Source of the DNA: Paracoccus spongiarum
Lineage (GTDB): Bacteria > Pseudomonadota > Alphaproteobacteria > Rhodobacterales > Rhodobacteraceae
Length of the DNA: 64,000 nucleotides
Assembly: GCF_030732095.1 (NCBI RefSeq)
Contig: NZ_JAVAMQ010000009.1
Span: 62,001-126,000 of the forward strand
Direction of reading: 5' to 3'
Positions 48,291 to 55,159 of the stretch are shown here, one piece after another; position 1 is the first letter of the stretch, and each line of letters opens with the position of its first letter. The translations under genes were made by a program, and so were the position numbers. The notes beneath the pieces were generated by a model, which saw only the letters and a program-made list of their open reading frames with translations, was not told where the DNA came from and made no database searches.

Positions 48291-51095
48291 ATGGATTTCG
48301 ACGCCGCCATAACGCGCCTGCCGCTGCCCCATGACCCTGACCGCGCCGCGCGCGTCCGTGCCGACTTCGCCGATCTTCCGTCGCGGCTGACCGACCTGCT
48401 GGCCGGGGTGGCGGGATGCAGCCCATACCTGACCGGGCTGATGGGGAAAGAGGCCGGCTGGCTGCGCGGGCGCGCGCTGGACCATGACGACGTGGTTGCG
48501 CGCGAGACGCGGGACTTCGAGTCCCTCGATGCCGACGATCTCGGCATCGGCCTGCGCCGCGCAAAGCGCCGGGTCGCGCTGCAGGCGGCGCTGGCCGATC
48601 TGGGGGGCGTGTGGTCGCTGGAACAGGTGACCGGCGCGCTGTCCGACCTTGCCGACCGCGCGACCGACCTGGCGCTGCGCCTGCATGTCGCCCATGAGGC
48701 GCGGCGCGGCAAGCTGCCGGCGACGACCGCCGATGCGGGCGGGCTTTTCGCGCTGGCGATGGGCAAGGGCGGCGCCCGCGAGCTGAACTACAGCTCGGAC
48801 ATCGACCTGATCGTGTTCTACGACGAGGACGCCTATGCCGAGGCGGACCAGCACGAGGCCCGCGCCGCGTTGATCCGGGCAACGAAGAAGATGGCGGCCA
48901 CGCTCTCGGACGTGACCGAACATGGCTACGTCTTTCGCACCGACCTGCGGCTGCGGCCCGATGCGGCGGTGACGCCGGTCTGCATCTCGACCGCCGCGGC
49001 GCTGGCCTATTACGAGGCCGAGGGCCGGACCTGGGAACGCGCCGCGTTCATCAAGGCTCGGGCGGCGGCCGGCGACATCGTGGCCGGCGAACGTTTCCTG
49101 GCGGAACTGCGCCCCTTCGTCTGGCGCAAGCATCTGGACTTCGCCGCGATCCAGGACGCCCACGACATGCGGCTGCGCATCCGCGACCACAAGGGGCTGG
49201 GCGGCAGGCTGGAGGTGCCGGGCCACAACATCAAGCTGGGCCGCGGCGGTATCCGCGAGATCGAGTTCTTCACCCAGACCCGGCAGCTGATCGCGGGCGG
49301 GCGCGATCCGCAGCTGCGCTGCCGCGACACCGTGGGCGGGCTGGCCGCGCTGGCCCGGCAGGGCTGGCTGCCGCACGAGGTCGCGGACGAACTGGCCGAT
49401 CATTATCGCAGCCATCGCGACATCGAACACCGCATCCAGATGGTCAATGACGCCCAGACCCATTCCCTGCCGAAAGAGCCCGAGGCGCTGGCGGCGATCG
49501 CGGCAATGATGGGCGAGGCGGATGCCGATGCCTGGTCGGCCGCGCTGAAAGCCCGGCTCGAGCGCGTGCACGAGATGACCGAGACCTTTTTCGCGCCGGG
49601 CGAGACCGCCGACCGGCCCGAGCTTTCCGACGAGGCCACGGCGATCATCGCCCGCTGGCAAGGTTACGCGGCGCTGCGTTCGGCCCGGTCGCGGCAGATC
49701 TTCAAGCGCGTCGAGCCCGAGCTTCTGTCGCGCATGGCGCGCACGGGCCATCCCGACGAGGCGCTGCAACGCTTTGACAGCTTTCTTGCGGGGCTGCCGG
49801 CGGGGGTGCAGCTGTTCTCGCTGTTCGAGGCCAATCCGCAACTGATCGAGCTGATCGTCGATATCTGCGGCACCGCGCCGGGGCTGGCGGCCTATCTGGC
49901 GCGGCATCCCGCGGTGCTGGACGCGGTTCTGGGCGGCAGCTTCTTCGCGCCCTGGCCCGGGGCGCCGGGGCTGCGCGACAGCCTGTCGGCGGCCCTCGCG
50001 ACTGCGGGATCTGGACCTGCCGGCAGCTATGAAGGCGCGCTGGACGCCGCGCGGCGCTGGGCGCATGAGTGGCATTTCCGCATCGGCGTGCATCACCTGC
50101 GCGGACTGATCGACGCTGACGAGGCCGGCACCCAATATGCCGATCTGGCCGATGCCTGCCTTGCGGCGCTGTTCCCGGTGACCGCCGCCGATTTCGCGCA
50201 CCGCCACGGGCCGCCGCCGGGCCGCGGGGCGGTGGTGCTGGGCATGGGATCGCTGGGCGCGCGGCTGCTGAATGCGGGATCGGATCTCGACCTGATCGTG
50301 ATTTACGACGCCGCCGGGGACGAGGCGTCCGAAGGGCCGCGGCCGCTTGCGACCCGGCCCTACTACGCCAGGCTCACCCAGGCGATGATCACCGCCGTGT
50401 CGGCCCTGACCGCCGAGGGCAGGCTTTACGAGGTCGACATGCGCCTGCGCCCATCGGGCCGGCAGGGTCCGGTCGCCACCTCGGTGCAAGGCTTCGAGAA
50501 CTACCAGATGACCGAGGCCTGGACATGGGAGCATCTGGCGCTGAGCCGGGCCCGCATTGTCGCGCGTGCCGGCGCCGATGCCGAGCAGCTTGCCGATCAG
50601 GTCGAGGCCCTGCGGTTGTCGGTCATGCGCGGATGCGGCGGCGCGGCGCGGGTCATGCCCGATCTGGCCGAGATGCGGGCGCGGATCTTCGCGGCCAAGG
50701 CGCCCGACGGCCAGTGGGAGGCCAAGGTCGGGCCGGGGCGCCTGCAGGACATCGAATTGCTGGCCCAGTCCTGTGCCCTGCGCGGCGGCGATCCCGCCCG
50801 CCCGACGCTGGCGCAGCTGCGCGCCGGCGTGCGGTCCGGCCTGCTGGCACGCGAGACGGCCGACCGTCTGGCCTCGATCTGGCGTTTCCTGTGGCGCCTG
50901 CACGCCTCGGGCCGGCTGCTGACCGACCGGCCACTGGACATGGCCGAGATCGGGCTGGGCGGGCAGGAGTTCCTGCTGCGGGAGACCGGTGCCGAAACGC
51001 TGTCGGGGCTGGCCGAGGCGCTGGAGAGCCGGGTCGCCGAGGCCGCGCGGATCATCGGAGACGAACTGCCCGCGCGCGCTGCGGCCGAAGGCTAG
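48291..51095 (+). CDS. glnE: Bifunctional glutamine synthetase adenylyltransferase/deadenylylase GlnE
   Basis: GlnE attaches and removes AMP from glutamine synthetase in response to nitrogen status via PII. From the ATG at 48291 it is 934 residues, typical size. The N-terminal deadenylylase domain has its nucleotidyltransferase motif GKGGARELNYSSDIDLIVFY near 157-176, and the C-terminal adenylylase domain has GMGSLGARLLNAGSDLDLIV near 651-670. Each is followed by helical domains. The frame is open further upstream to 47262 but that part overlaps bpt antisense and is not coding. Confidence 0.95.
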   Translation: MDFDAAITRLPLPHDPDRAARVRADFADLPSRLTDLLAGVAGCSPYLTGLMGKEAGWLRGRALDHDDVVARETRDFESLDADDLGIGLRRAKRRVALQAALADLGGVWSLEQVTGALSDLADRATDLALRLHVAHEARRGKLPATTADAGGLFALAMGKGGARELNYSSDIDLIVFYDEDAYAEADQHEARAALIRATKKMAATLSDVTEHGYVFRTDLRLRPDAAVTPVCISTAAALAYYEAEGRTWERAAFIKARAAAGDIVAGERFLAELRPFVWRKHLDFAAIQDAHDMRLRIRDHKGLGGRLEVPGHNIKLGRGGIREIEFFTQTRQLIAGGRDPQLRCRDTVGGLAALARQGWLPHEVADELADHYRSHRDIEHRIQMVNDAQTHSLPKEPEALAAIAAMMGEADADAWSAALKARLERVHEMTETFFAPGETADRPELSDEATAIIARWQGYAALRSARSRQIFKRVEPELLSRMARTGHPDEALQRFDSFLAGLPAGVQLFSLFEANPQLIELIVDICGTAPGLAAYLARHPAVLDAVLGGSFFAPWPGAPGLRDSLSAALATAGSGPAGSYEGALDAARRWAHEWHFRIGVHHLRGLIDADEAGTQYADLADACLAALFPVTAADFAHRHGPPPGRGAVVLGMGSLGARLLNAGSDLDLIVIYDAAGDEASEGPRPLATRPYYARLTQAMITAVSALTAEGRLYEVDMRLRPSGRQGPVATSVQGFENYQMTEAWTWEHLALSRARIVARAGADAEQLADQVEALRLSVMRGCGGAARVMPDLAEMRARIFAAKAPDGQWEAKVGPGRLQDIELLAQSCALRGGDPARPTLAQLRAGVRSGLLARETADRLASIWRFLWRLHASGRLLTDRPLDMAEIGLGGQEFLLRETGAETLSGLAEALESRVAEAARIIGDELPARAAAEG

Positions 51096-51102
51096 ACGCG
51101 GA

Positions 51103-53262
51103 TCACCCGGCGGCGGTCGCCGGCAGCGGGTCAAGGTCGTCCTCCTGACGGGGCAGCGCGGAGGCGCCGCTGTCCGTCACGGCCTGCCGCCAGGCCGCCG
51201 CCGCGGGCCGCGCGGAGGGTCCGGCCTCGGCAGCGATCTCGGCCAGGGACCGCCCGCCGATCGGGCCGAGGACCGGCACCAGTACCCGGCCCTCCCCCGC
51301 CACCGGCTGCGCCGGCGCGGCTTCGGCCTCGGGCGCGTCGAAGATGCCATGCGCCGTCTTGTCCCAGTAGAACGGCTTTGCCACCACCTCGTAGATCGCC
51401 TTCCACCCGGCCAGGCAGCCAAGCGGGAAATACAGGTGCAGGCTGGGAACCCAGCCCAGCAGGTGGCGATGCCTGGCGCCGCGCACCGCCCACAGACCGA
51501 TGCCAATGCTGATCGCTTCGGTCGCGATGAACAGGCCGAACAGCACCGCAAGGGCGTGACCACCCCAGACATCGGCCAGAGGCGCGCGCAGCGGATGGGG
51601 CAGGCCAAGGCTCAGCAGCCAGAAGCTCCACAATATCGGGGCCAGCAGGTATTGCGACAGGGTGGCCAGGAACTGCACCTGAAAGCCCAAGAAGCGCCGC
51701 GGCCCCAGATCGCGCCACAGCTGCCGCGGGCTGCGCATGTGCACGCCCCAGGTCATCGCATAGCCCTTGAGCCAGCGCGAGCGTTGCTTGACCCAGGGCA
51801 GGGCCCGGCAATTCGCCTCTTCGTCGGTGGTGGTGTCGATGATCTCGGTGCGCCAGCCGCGCCGGGCCAGCCGGACGCCGAGATCGGCGTCCTCGGTGAC
51901 GTTCCAGGCATCCCAGGCGCCCACGGCTTCCAGCGCATTGCGGCGAAAGAAGATCGTGGTGCCGCCCAGGGGCACGACCAGCCCCAGCCGCGCGACCCCC
52001 GGCAGCAGCACCCTGAACCAGGCGGCGTATTCGATGGTAAAGCAGCGGGCCAGCCAGTTGGTCGTCGGGTTGTAATAGTCCAGCGCGCCCTGCAGGCAGG
52101 CCACATCGGGCGCTGCGAAATGAAAGCCGCGGGCGACCTTGTGCAACTGGTCGGCATCGGGCCGGTCCTCGGCGTCCCAGACGCCCACGATCTCGCCCCG
52201 GCAGAAGTTCAGCGCATAGTTCAGCGCGCGAGGCTTGGTCTGCAGCGGGCCTTCCGGCACCTCGACGACGCGCAGCCATGCGGGCAGGTCGACGCCCGCA
52301 AGGGCGCGGCGGGTGATCTGGTCGCTGGCCTCGATCACCAGCAGGACATCGGTCAGCTCGCGCGGATAGTCGAGCCGGGCCAGTCTTCTGACAAGCCGCC
52401 CGGCCACATCGCTTTCGCGAAACAGCGGCACCATCACCGAGATGACCGGCAGCGCGCCGGTCATCTGCGGTGCGGCGATGCGGCCCTCGCCTGTCTCGCG
52501 CAGGGCGCGGGCGCGCGCACGGCCCGCCCGCCATGTCGCCGCGAAGGCCAGCAGCTTCAGCCCGGTCAGCGCCAGAAGCGTCAGCACCGCCCAGCCCGTC
52601 AGCACCGACAGCATCACCACCGGCATCAGCCACAGCCCCGCCGCAACGCCCGCCATGAGGGCTAGCGCGACCCGCCCGGTCAGCGCCTCGTTGCGGGTCC
52701 GGCAGCTTTCGGCGGCAGGCACGCGCAACTCGGCGGCCCTGATCATCGCGGTGCGGCGCGAGGCAAGGATGGCCGTCTGGATCTGCGCCTCGCTGGACAG
52801 CAGCATGCGGATGCGCCCGAAGGCTTCCGGCAGCCGCGGCCGCAGGGCTTCGAATTCGTCGGGGCGGTCGGTGGCGACCCAGGTCGTGCCGCCGATCCGC
52901 CGCCAGGGCAGCACGCCATGGGCAAGGCAGAACTCGGCGCCGGCCGCGTCGATCAGCCGGGGATCGCCGGGTGTGGCCGCCGGGTCCACCGCGCTGGTGC
53001 GCCATTGCCGCGACAGCGCGCGGGTCAGCGCCTCGGGCGTGACCCAGCCCTGTGCCAGCAGGATCTGGCCCAGCCGCGCCTTCTGGCGCTGGCGCATCAC
53101 CACGGCCTTCAGCAGGTGGCCCGGATCGACGGCGCCGTCTTCTAGCAGGATCTGGCCCAGAGGCTGCAGGTTGCGAGGCGCTAGGGTCGCCGGCTGCGGC
53201 AGATCGGCCGGCGCGGCTTCGGGCGGAAAGGAGGCTGGGGTCTGTCTGCGAGGCTCGGACAT
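51103..53262 (-). CDS. MshEN-domain glycosyltransferase family 2 fusion protein
   Basis: 719 residues. Two N-terminal repeats (LGQILLEDGAV near 35-45 and LGQILLAQGWV near 64-74) mark an MshEN/GspE-N domain, the region that binds cyclic-di-GMP or partners in type II secretion ATPases. Two membrane helices follow (about 197-243), then a GT2 domain with DAED 363-366, TEDAD 456-460 and the processive-type QRSRW 493-497. More membrane helices lie at about 525-600. It resembles polysaccharide synthases and NfrB-like proteins. The fusion suggests c-di-GMP-controlled exopolysaccharide synthesis, which is inference. Confidence 0.88.
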   Translation of the reverse strand: MSEPRRQTPASFPPEAAPADLPQPATLAPRNLQPLGQILLEDGAVDPGHLLKAVVMRQRQKARLGQILLAQGWVTPEALTRALSRQWRTSAVDPAATPGDPRLIDAAGAEFCLAHGVLPWRRIGGTTWVATDRPDEFEALRPRLPEAFGRIRMLLSSEAQIQTAILASRRTAMIRAAELRVPAAESCRTRNEALTGRVALALMAGVAAGLWLMPVVMLSVLTGWAVLTLLALTGLKLLAFAATWRAGRARARALRETGEGRIAAPQMTGALPVISVMVPLFRESDVAGRLVRRLARLDYPRELTDVLLVIEASDQITRRALAGVDLPAWLRVVEVPEGPLQTKPRALNYALNFCRGEIVGVWDAEDRPDADQLHKVARGFHFAAPDVACLQGALDYYNPTTNWLARCFTIEYAAWFRVLLPGVARLGLVVPLGGTTIFFRRNALEAVGAWDAWNVTEDADLGVRLARRGWRTEIIDTTTDEEANCRALPWVKQRSRWLKGYAMTWGVHMRSPRQLWRDLGPRRFLGFQVQFLATLSQYLLAPILWSFWLLSLGLPHPLRAPLADVWGGHALAVLFGLFIATEAISIGIGLWAVRGARHRHLLGWVPSLHLYFPLGCLAGWKAIYEVVAKPFYWDKTAHGIFDAPEAEAAPAQPVAGEGRVLVPVLGPIGGRSLAEIAAEAGPSARPAAAAWRQAVTDSGASALPRQEDDLDPLPATAAG

Positions 53263-53369
53263 GGGCGAATCCCTGAAGGATCGCCCAGTCTTGTCACGCG
53301 AAGGGTTAAGAAGATGTTAAGCGCAACAGCCGCGCGGCGGGATGCCGCGGGGCCGCAACACCCGCGCCT

Positions 53370-54518
53370 TCAGCCGCGCCGCGCGCGCATCGATTCGGCA
53401 AAGCGGCGGAACAGGTAGAGGCTGTCCTGCGGGCCCGGTGCGGCCTCGGGGTGATACTGCACCGAAAAGACCGGGCGGTCCTGCATCCGCAGGCCGCAAT
53501 TGCTGCCGTCGAACAGGCTGACATGGGTCTCGACGACACCCTCGGGCAAGCTCTGGCTGTCCACCGCAAAGCCGTGGTTCATCGAGGTGATCTCGACCTT
53601 TCCGGTCTCGCGGTCGCGGACCGGATGGTTGGCGCCGTGATGGCCGTGGCCCATCTTCACGGTCCGCGCACCAAGCGCCAGCGCCAGCATCTGGTGGCCA
53701 AGGCAGATGCCGAAGATCGGCAGGTCGCGCGCCAGCAGGGACTGGATCATCGGCACCGCATAGGCGCCAGTTGCGGCCGGATCGCCGGGACCGTTCGACA
53801 GGAACACCCCTTCGGGGTCGTGCGCCAGAACCTCTTCGGCGGTGGCGGTGGCCGGCAGGACCGTGACCTCGGCCCCGTGCGCCACCAGCGAGCGCAGGAT
53901 GTTGCGCTTGGCGCCGTAATCCAGCGCCACGACCCGGAAGGGCCGCGCCTCGGGCGTGGTGCCGAAGCCCTTGCCCCATTCCCACGACCCTTCGTCCCAC
54001 CGGTAGGCCTGGGTGCAGCTGACCTCGCGCGCCAGATCCAGCCCGACAAGCCCCTGCCAGGCGCGGGCGCGGGCGATCATCGCCTCGATGTCGAAGCGCC
54101 CGTCGGGATCGTGGGCCAGCACGACATGCGGGGCGCCCTGCTGGCGGATGGCGCGGGTCAGGCGGCGGGTATCGACGCCGCCGATACCGATGCGCCCGCG
54201 CCGGGCCATCCAGCCGGCCAGATCGTCCGCGGCGCGCCAGTTCGACGGCTCGGTCGGGTCCCAGCGGACGACGATGCCGCTGGCCACCGGATCCTGCGCC
54301 TCGTCATCCTCGGGGGTGACGCCGGTATTGCCGATATGGGGGAAGGTGAAGGTGACGATCTGGCTGGCATAGGAGGGATCGGTCATGATCTCCTGATAGC
54401 CGGTCATCGCGGTGTTGAAGACAAGCTCGGCAACCACCTCTCCGGCGGCGCCGAAGCCGTGGCCGTAGAAGACGGTTCCGTCGGCTAGCGCAAGGCAGGC
54501 GGTCGGTTGTGCGGCCAT
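53370..54518 (-). CDS. carA: Carbamoyl phosphate synthase small subunit CarA
   Basis: The glutamine amidotransferase subunit of carbamoyl phosphate synthase, 382 residues, typical size. The N-terminal CPSase domain includes LVFNTAMTGYQEIMTDPSY. The class I amidotransferase domain has the nucleophile in FGICLGHQ (C272) and the H356/E358 pair in QYHPEAA. It supplies ammonia for arginine and pyrimidine synthesis. carB is not visible. It lies alone, divergent from the GatB/YqeY gene. Confidence 0.96.
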   Translation of the reverse strand: MAAQPTACLALADGTVFYGHGFGAAGEVVAELVFNTAMTGYQEIMTDPSYASQIVTFTFPHIGNTGVTPEDDEAQDPVASGIVVRWDPTEPSNWRAADDLAGWMARRGRIGIGGVDTRRLTRAIRQQGAPHVVLAHDPDGRFDIEAMIARARAWQGLVGLDLAREVSCTQAYRWDEGSWEWGKGFGTTPEARPFRVVALDYGAKRNILRSLVAHGAEVTVLPATATAEEVLAHDPEGVFLSNGPGDPAATGAYAVPMIQSLLARDLPIFGICLGHQMLALALGARTVKMGHGHHGANHPVRDRETGKVEITSMNHGFAVDSQSLPEGVVETHVSLFDGSNCGLRMQDRPVFSVQYHPEAAPGPQDSLYLFRRFAESMRARRG

Positions 54519-54694
54519 GTCGGCACCTCTGGTCTGAAATCAGCCGGTAATTATGGGGGGCCGCAGGCAAGGTCAACCCGCAGCGACGCAGGGTTGCGGC
54601 TTGATTCCGGGGGGCTTGCGGCCTACATGGCGGACTTTCGCGTTCGCGCGCCGCCGCGGTGGCGCGGCGGGCCGTCCCAGCCGGAGACAGAACA

Positions 54695-55159
54695 ATGGAT
54701 CTGCGTGCCAAACTGCAAACCGCCACAAAAGAGGCGATGAAGGCCAAGAACAGCGCCCGCCTGTCGACGCTGCGCCTCATCGGTGCGGCGGTGAAGGATC
54801 GCGAGATCGCGGCCAGGGGCAGCGACGGTGATGGCGGCGAACTGACCGAGGCCGATCTGATCGCGATCCTGTCGAAGATGGTCAAGCAGCGGCAGGAATC
54901 GGCGCGGGCCTATGAGGAGGGTGGCCGGCTGGAGCTGGCGCAGAAGGAAGAGGACGAGATCGGCGTCATCCAGGAATTCCTGCCCCGGCAGCTGAGCGAG
55001 ACCGAGACCGAGGCCGCCATCGACGCGGTGATCGAGGGGCTGGGCGCGACGGGGATCCGCGACATGGGCCGGGTGATGGCCGAACTGCGCGCCCGCCATG
55101 CCGGCCAGATGGATTTCGGCACTGTCGGCCCGCTGGTCAAGCGGCGCCTGCTGAACTAG
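54695..55159 (+). CDS. GatB/YqeY domain protein
   Basis: 154 residues from the ATG at 54695 with GGAG 8 bases upstream. It opens MDLRAKLQTATKEAMKAKNSARLSTLRLI, in parts typical of YqeY, and continues with the helical domain (RIMAEL-like MGRVMAELRARH near 125-136) shared with the C-terminal tail of GatB. The family may bind tRNA, but the role of free-standing YqeY is unknown. Confidence 0.92.
   Translation: MDLRAKLQTATKEAMKAKNSARLSTLRLIGAAVKDREIAARGSDGDGGELTEADLIAILSKMVKQRQESARAYEEGGRLELAQKEEDEIGVIQEFLPRQLSETETEAAIDAVIEGLGATGIRDMGRVMAELRARHAGQMDFGTVGPLVKRRLLN

Follow-up and report, generated by a model that had tools for sequence, protein, structure and literature searches.

The gene described here, at about a 70% probability, encodes an inner-membrane, processive GT2 polysaccharide synthase that c-di-GMP gates by binding to an MshEN domain at the N-terminus of the same protein. 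The enzyme probably builds a sugar polymer. What is new is the near-universality of this gene in the family to which Paracoccus belongs, the Rhodobacteraceae, and its near-constant place after carA.

The 64-kb window is the whole stretch of DNA that was analysed. In it, the MshEN-GT2 gene lies on the minus strand (51103..53262, read from 53262 to 51103), where ORF calling, Pfam and NCBIfam define a protein of 719 amino acids. The plus-strand frame across 51103-53262 is interrupted by stops, and a mechanically called plus-strand ORF overlaps part of the same interval. Directly upstream on the same strand, after 107 bases, is carA (53370..54518, minus strand; Pfam). The downstream neighbour, glnE (48291..51095, plus strand; Pfam), is convergent, with a start codon that is our choice and a stop codon 7 bases from that of the MshEN-GT2 gene. 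The initial annotation had given the coordinates of the ORF exactly, and its assignment of glnE and carA as the flanking genes is borne out by Pfam. Its further remark that the gene stands alone is true among the 10 ORFs scanned with Pfam (42.9-59.0 kb; one was unmatched at threshold), none of which matches a polysaccharide family, but the gene is syntenic in the family, directly downstream of carA. A polysaccharide operon at this locus was considered and rejected, as none of the 10 scanned ORFs fits one. A scan of 50900-54900 for promoters and terminators found nothing.

Probable sensor and synthase domains

The initial annotation had read the protein as an MshEN domain fused to a GT2 glycosyltransferase, and had proposed a profile search of the N-terminal region, an inspection of the c-di-GMP-contact residues and a structure prediction as tests. 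In the profile search, MshEN scores above the curated cut-offs of both Pfam and NCBIfam. PF05157 reaches 35.2 bits (cut-off 23.1) at residues 90-165, the MshEN_C half, and NF053729, which describes an MshE-related c-di-GMP motif, reaches 45.9 bits against 38 at residues 34-86, a score above cut-off that places the match beyond chance. The remainder of the protein matches the Pfam GT2 families PF13632 (E 2.9e-26) and PF13641 (E 9e-25), and the fusion is confirmed as an observation.

The MshEN_N unit (residues 34-86, minus strand) is of the two-motif c-di-GMP-binding type recognized by NF053729. Its two 24-residue motifs are separated by a canonical 5-residue spacer at 58-62. Motif I (residues 34-57, PLGQILLEDGAVDPGHLLKAVVMR; 53092..53163, minus strand) fits the relaxed motif of PMC5013675, and motif II (residues 63-86, RLGQILLAQGWVTPEALTRALSRQ; 53005..53076, minus strand) is canonical, fitting the relaxed motif as well as NF053729. 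The two LGQILL-type repeats that had been noticed at residues 35-45 and 64-74 both fall inside these motifs. The MshEN_C subdomain follows at residues 90-165 (52768..52995, minus strand), as defined by PF05157 and by comparison of the model with MshE (5htl).

Most of the residues that contact c-di-GMP are retained. The initial annotation had said that a missing MshEN match or the loss of these residues would refute its interpretation; neither is seen, and the interpretation is supported. L35, G36, L50, R63, L64, G65, L79, L83 and Q86 are the same as in MshE, and V54 is a conservative change. The exceptions are P34 and R57, at the two ends of motif I, which stand where MshE has Arg and Gln; the ends of motif II carry the expected R63 and Q86. 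Motif I of E. coli NfrB, inspected by eye, also carries this P and R (PLGQ...RNR), and was not flagged by the strict motif pattern (the NfrB spacer is 4 residues). In MshE, changing any conserved hydrophobic residue is reported to reduce binding more than tenfold, and changes to Arg9, Asp12 or Gln32 reduce it at most about fivefold, although Arg9 and Gln32 are nevertheless termed important (PMC5013675). In NfrB, residues 414-745 are reported to bind c-di-GMP (PMC8669469). G491L is described as the most severe change, and most single Leu changes as affecting phage N4 barely or not at all (PMC8669469, PMC8669472).

Conservation of the pocket was assessed in alignment A2, for which 60 sequences were taken from 80 named loci and four with a stop in the matched range were dropped; the remaining 56 and the MshEN-GT2 protein itself make up its 57 sequences. 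The 12 ligand-contact columns have an entropy of 0.92 bits, compared with 1.63 bits in the rest of the 53-residue unit (permutation p 0.0026, in a test that takes alignment columns as independent). The full Gly/hydrophobic core is kept in 47 of the 57 sequences, a core position is altered in nine, and one further sequence ends before residue 36. Judged from these sequences, the putative c-di-GMP pocket is conserved much as in proven binders.

The initial annotation had noted membrane helices between the MshEN domain and the GT2 motifs, and hydropathy and the structural model agree on their location, at approximately residues 193-258 (52489..52686, minus strand; model helices 192-212 and 214-258). 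The GT2 catalytic domain spans approximately residues 270-500 (51763..52455, minus strand; PF13641, PF13632 and BcsA 9fnn). Sequence and alignment locate the three motifs of the initial annotation within it, all on the minus strand: DAED at residues 363-366 (52165..52176), TEDAD at 456-460 (51883..51897) and QRSRW at 493-497 (51772..51786). The D, DxD, TED and QxxRW signatures of processive membrane GT2 synthases are all present, and D314, D363, D366, T456, E457, D458, Q493, R496 and W497 are identical in 57/57 aligned sequences. Interfacial and C-terminal membrane helices occupy residues 521-628 of the model (51379..51702, minus strand), a region in which hydropathy exceeds 1.5 only at 561-593. 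They are followed by a conserved tail motif, PFYWDKTAHG, at residues 630-639 (51346..51375, minus strand). The WDKT-H element of this tail, located after the last membrane helix, is near-invariant in the family (alignments A1 and A2). E. coli NfrB has WDKTTH, despite only distantly related GT domains.

An AlphaFold2 model built from alignment A2 has a mean pLDDT of 86.2 and a pTM of 0.82, and its best PDB matches in Foldseek are BcsA, hyaluronan synthases, PcManGT and chitin synthases. In VIA-align 2, the MshEN part of the model (residues 32-169) superposes on MshE with c-di-GMP (5htl) with a Z of 18.1, at 2.2 A over 137 residues, and matches the c-di-GMP-bound PilF domain (8pdk) with a Z of 16.6. 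The glycosyltransferase part (residues 211-643) superposes on BcsA (9fnn) with a Z of 24.8, at 3.5 A over 373 residues. This is the best of the BcsA rows, which range from Z 17.8 up, with identity of about 15-20%; hyaluronan synthase gives a Z of 23.2. The predicted folds thus match c-di-GMP-bound MshE and BcsA.

The top row of the same comparison is the mannosyltransferase PcManGT (6yv7), with a Z of 27.5, and a non-processive reading of the enzyme therefore stays open. It may be that c-di-GMP is sensed, but that the GT2 domain is not a polymerase and instead transfers a single sugar onto a lipid carrier or a glycolipid of the envelope, as would also suit a genome that lacks BcsB and a locus with no polysaccharide gene in the 10 scanned neighbours. 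We consider this unlikely, given that the QxxRW motif and C-terminal membrane helices are like those of BcsA and hyaluronan synthases. In addition, a homologue on a Geobacillus plasmid adjoins a BcsB-like gene, and a sugar nucleotidyltransferase gene and a gene annotated as GT39 are also among its neighbours, a context that favours a polymer as the product.

Distribution in the Rhodobacteraceae and a probable link to GGDEF proteins

All 36 of the same-genus relatives have the MshEN-GT2 gene, 32 as one near-complete match and four in truncated form or in pieces. In one Paracoccus relative (G012; L012 1492-2817), a TAG interrupts the reading frame of the synthase 442 codons in, which reflects either a pseudogene or an assembly error. 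Across the family, the gene is found at 1e-30 in 267 of 295 genomes, sampled from 294 genera, and in 266 of the 294 genera; among good-quality genomes the count is 241/260. This search scored at most three candidates per genome, and a few of the negatives could be false. Among the family matches listed, all but three (G140, G202 and G205) begin at residue 57 or earlier and so include MshEN. In the class at large, matches occur in 45 of 385 genomes, five of which are family members; some are full length and others are without MshEN. One class locus (L155), with a frame cut by a stop, matches neither the GT nor the MshEN profile.

The position of the gene is equally consistent. By tblastn, 104 of 110 family loci have carA upstream of the gene and on its strand, and in all except two of these the gap measures 38-280 bases; some of the 110 loci represent the same genome counted from two collections. 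Of the other six, five show no carA and one has carA elsewhere. Within the genus, carA is beside the gene in 30/30 loci examined.

The gene is also absent wherever GGDEF proteins are. No GGDEF match is found in 16 of the 295 family genomes, and none of these 16 has the MshEN-GT2 gene, compared with 267 of the 279 GGDEF-positive genomes. The GGDEF-less genomes are G074, G089, G093, G119, G150, G162, G169 and G196, together with G217, G224, G227, G232, G261, G269, G287 and G341. The 28 gene-negative family genomes comprise 20 that are listed and eight deduced from gaps in the genome numbering. Twelve are GGDEF-positive, and seven of these 12 are under 90% complete. Fisher's test of the co-occurrence gives a p of 2.9e-19, a value uncorrected for phylogeny that is not relied on here.

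Phylogenetic correction was based mainly on rpoB, using a tree of 54 of 60 chosen genomes (six had no match at threshold), in which gene-positive genomes were picked mainly among low scorers. The best tree has eight changes of GGDEF state (7-9 over bootstraps), and the gene is always absent with GGDEF. At least five state changes are forced by supported branches, in a tree whose bootstrap is not settled and in which two long branches (G119 and G269) meet. It thus seems that c-di-GMP signalling has been lost repeatedly in the family, in at least five lineages on this tree. Five phylogenetically corrected pairs are supported, of which an average of 2.9 agree, 0 oppose and 2.1 show no difference (median p 0.25). 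Trees of carA, available for the 13 of 16 GGDEF-less genomes with usable carA and leaving aside sequences whose match contained a stop or aligned over less than about 240 residues, offer weak support only: the full tree has six GGDEF changes but is poorly resolved, with some very long branches, and a 53-row subset has four changes and one supported independent pair. The link to GGDEF is strong in count, and is not significant after phylogenetic correction, as there are too few pairs.

It could be that this co-absence reflects nothing more than a few lineages having diverged or been streamlined overall, with no functional link between the gene and GGDEF proteins. Several of the GGDEF-less genomes are indeed small and divergent, and a control gene, PhaC, which is missing from 8/295 genomes overall, is missing from 4/16 GGDEF-less genomes and from 4/279 others; the pair test, as described above, falls short of significance. 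However, PhaC is kept in 12 of the 16, some of the 16 genomes measure 3.4-5.6 Mb, and the separate changes forced by supported branches coincide with complete absence of the gene. General loss would account for part of the co-absence, not for all of it, and as a full explanation it is improbable.

Proposed mechanism and c-di-GMP signalling in Paracoccus

The source genome has GGDEF matches at three places and EAL matches at two, together representing four predicted c-di-GMP enzymes. Two have intact-looking GGDEF domains, a REC-GGDEF protein and a GGDEF protein, with the motifs GGEEF and GGDEF; the other two are a weak-GGDEF-EAL protein and one further EAL match. The genes encoding the two intact-looking diguanylate cyclases (L002 and L003; contig C56, 147474-150916) are divergently oriented, with approximately 2.5 kb between their GGDEF matches. 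This set mirrors that of P. denitrificans, for which two GGDEF and two EAL proteins are reported (PMC5588039).

The P. denitrificans network is small and has mutant phenotypes, and the literature found names no confirmed receptor (PMC5588039). One EAL protein is predicted there to be inactive and is suggested as a possible c-di-GMP receptor, and a KEGG analysis is said to give no evidence of extracellular polysaccharide synthesis (PMC5588039). A 2025 paper places c-di-GMP in this species below detection (PMC12582929). In the source genome, the MshEN-GT2 protein is the single MshEN protein, and the only protein found with either an MshEN or a PilZ domain. The genome-wide receptor search covered these two domain types. 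With four predicted c-di-GMP enzymes, no PilZ and no other MshEN in the genome, this protein is the foremost candidate for the still unconfirmed target of c-di-GMP in Paracoccus.

In the mechanism that we propose, the REC-GGDEF and GGDEF cyclases would produce c-di-GMP, and its binding by MshEN would relieve autoinhibition of the enzyme, by analogy with PilZ in BcsA and with the model proposed for NfrB. The freed enzyme would then polymerise a nucleotide sugar and thread the resulting glycan through the synthase's own membrane helices. Several points count against such a synthase, namely that motif I is without the stacking Arg and Gln of MshE, that no exporter could be assigned and the genome is without BcsB, that 12/279 GGDEF-positive genomes are without the gene, and that c-di-GMP is reported to be below detection in P. 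denitrificans (PMC12582929).

The phenotype of the P. denitrificans dgcAB mutant, excess biofilm and BapA (PMC5588039), is the opposite of what a simple c-di-GMP-activated matrix polymer predicts. This cautions that regulation may have the other sign, that an adhesin may be masked by the polymer, or that there is another target. If c-di-GMP inhibits the synthase, or if the polymer masks the adhesin BapA, low c-di-GMP would favour attachment, in keeping with the excess biofilm of these mutants. Such an arrangement is rather improbable. Activation is what has been described for BcsA and NfrB, and the abundance of BapA itself shifts in the mutants, which points to another target. Moreover, the GGDEF-less genomes lack the gene; in them, an enzyme held back by c-di-GMP would turn constitutive rather than useless, although that might itself select for loss. 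It is highly unlikely that MshEN no longer binds c-di-GMP and persists only for structure or for docking of other proteins, like XpsE, in which loss of binding is reported (PMC5013675): P34 and R57 and the nine core-variant sequences lean that way, but the Gly and hydrophobic positions important in MshE and NfrB are retained, NfrB binds c-di-GMP with the identical P and R (PMC8669469), and the gene is missing from all 16 GGDEF-less genomes.

A synthase gated by c-di-GMP remains the preferred reading. Beyond it lies a broader and more tentative possibility, that the synthase is an ancestral c-di-GMP output of the family, and in Paracoccus the principal one, making an undescribed family-wide glycan that would be the reason most members keep their cyclases and the reason both are lost together. 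If this is true, the synthase of a family-wide surface glycan would be the main reason that most Rhodobacteraceae retain diguanylate cyclases, and GGDEF enzymes and synthase would disappear in concert. As sensor and synthase are a single protein, a single deletion and a single binding assay would suffice to test what c-di-GMP does here.

Comparison with known systems

BcsA shares with the MshEN-GT2 protein the membrane GT2 synthase fold and the fusion of a c-di-GMP domain to the synthase. In BcsA this domain is a C-terminal PilZ, and MshEN is found in its place here. The MshEN-GT2 protein has fewer membrane helices than BcsA. PilZ has no match in the protein or in its genome, and BcsB is absent from that genome and present in only 23/295 family genomes. 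A BcsA/cellulose system was rejected, the genome being without both. The initial annotation had called the design unusual compared with PilZ-based BcsA. The design has a published precedent in NfrB (PMC8669469, PMC8669472), and Wang et al. 2016 already note that glycosyltransferases may carry a fused MshEN (PMC5013675), and the general idea is therefore not new. NfrB homologues are said to occur "occasionally" in alphaproteobacteria (PMC8669469). In the open-access literature found on MshEN and glycosyltransferases, Rhodobacteraceae appear in no title or abstract opening; an earlier listing of this architecture is possible. Searches found no paper combining "MshEN" with "Paracoccus" and, by title, none on this protein for "MshEN" with "Rhodobacter". 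The words "synthase" and "glycosyltransferase" are absent from a preprint on the R. capsulatus GTA tailspike (PMC13420450), which names no biofilm synthase.

The MshE/PilB/PilF-type secretion ATPases have N-terminal MshEN_N and MshEN_C units in common with the MshEN-GT2 protein. The ATPase domain is missing in the latter, and its output is a glycosyltransferase instead.

Closer homologues of the GT2 half are encoded on plasmids of Geobacillus, Frigoribacterium, Methylobacterium and Mycobacterium riyadhense, and belong to the same unnamed GT2 subfamily. A profile of the family's GT domain scores them at 380, 374, 338 and 330 bits, respectively, compared with 56 for BcsA, 35 for PgaC and 13 for NfrB. 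In three of the four, MshEN is not matched at 1e-3, and the Geobacillus member has an N-terminal MshEN, detected by our own profile at 1.3e-8 and by Pfam at 15.4 bits, under its cut-off. Its plasmid, pEF60063-1 of the Gram-positive Geobacillus stearothermophilus (L250 859-7596), is typed as conjugative and carries its own MshEN-GT2 synthase gene together with the BcsB-like, sugar nucleotidyltransferase and GT39-annotated genes, possibly as a c-di-GMP-regulated polysaccharide cassette. On plasmid 1 of Methylobacterium bullatum (L065 5188-5800), the N-terminus of the GT2 homologue resembles by eye a decayed MshEN; it has lost the LG motifs and gives no MshEN match in Pfam.

NfrB, of the NfrBA-YbcH phage N4 glycan receptor pathway in E. 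coli, is the closest parallel in design. It likewise joins MshEN to a GT2 domain with DxD, TED and QxxRW motifs, and the two proteins have in common the P...R variant of motif I and the WDKT-H tail after the membrane helices. However, the GT2 domain of NfrB is followed by a C-terminal MshEN, and here MshEN (34-165) precedes GT2 (approximately 270-500). The motif spacer is 4 residues in NfrB and 5 in the MshEN-GT2 protein, which scores 48.4 bits against the NfrB equivalog NF008411, with its cut-off of 1170. Genes for nfrA and ybcH are not beside the MshEN-GT2 gene, its neighbours being carA and glnE. Domain order, equivalog score and GT profile all speak against orthology with NfrB, which was rejected. 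Given the reversed order and the different GT2 subfamily, the fusion looks independent of that in NfrB and, as far as sequence comparison goes, is most simply a separate event. This suggests that fusion of MshEN with a GT2 synthase happened at least twice, and that either domain may come first.
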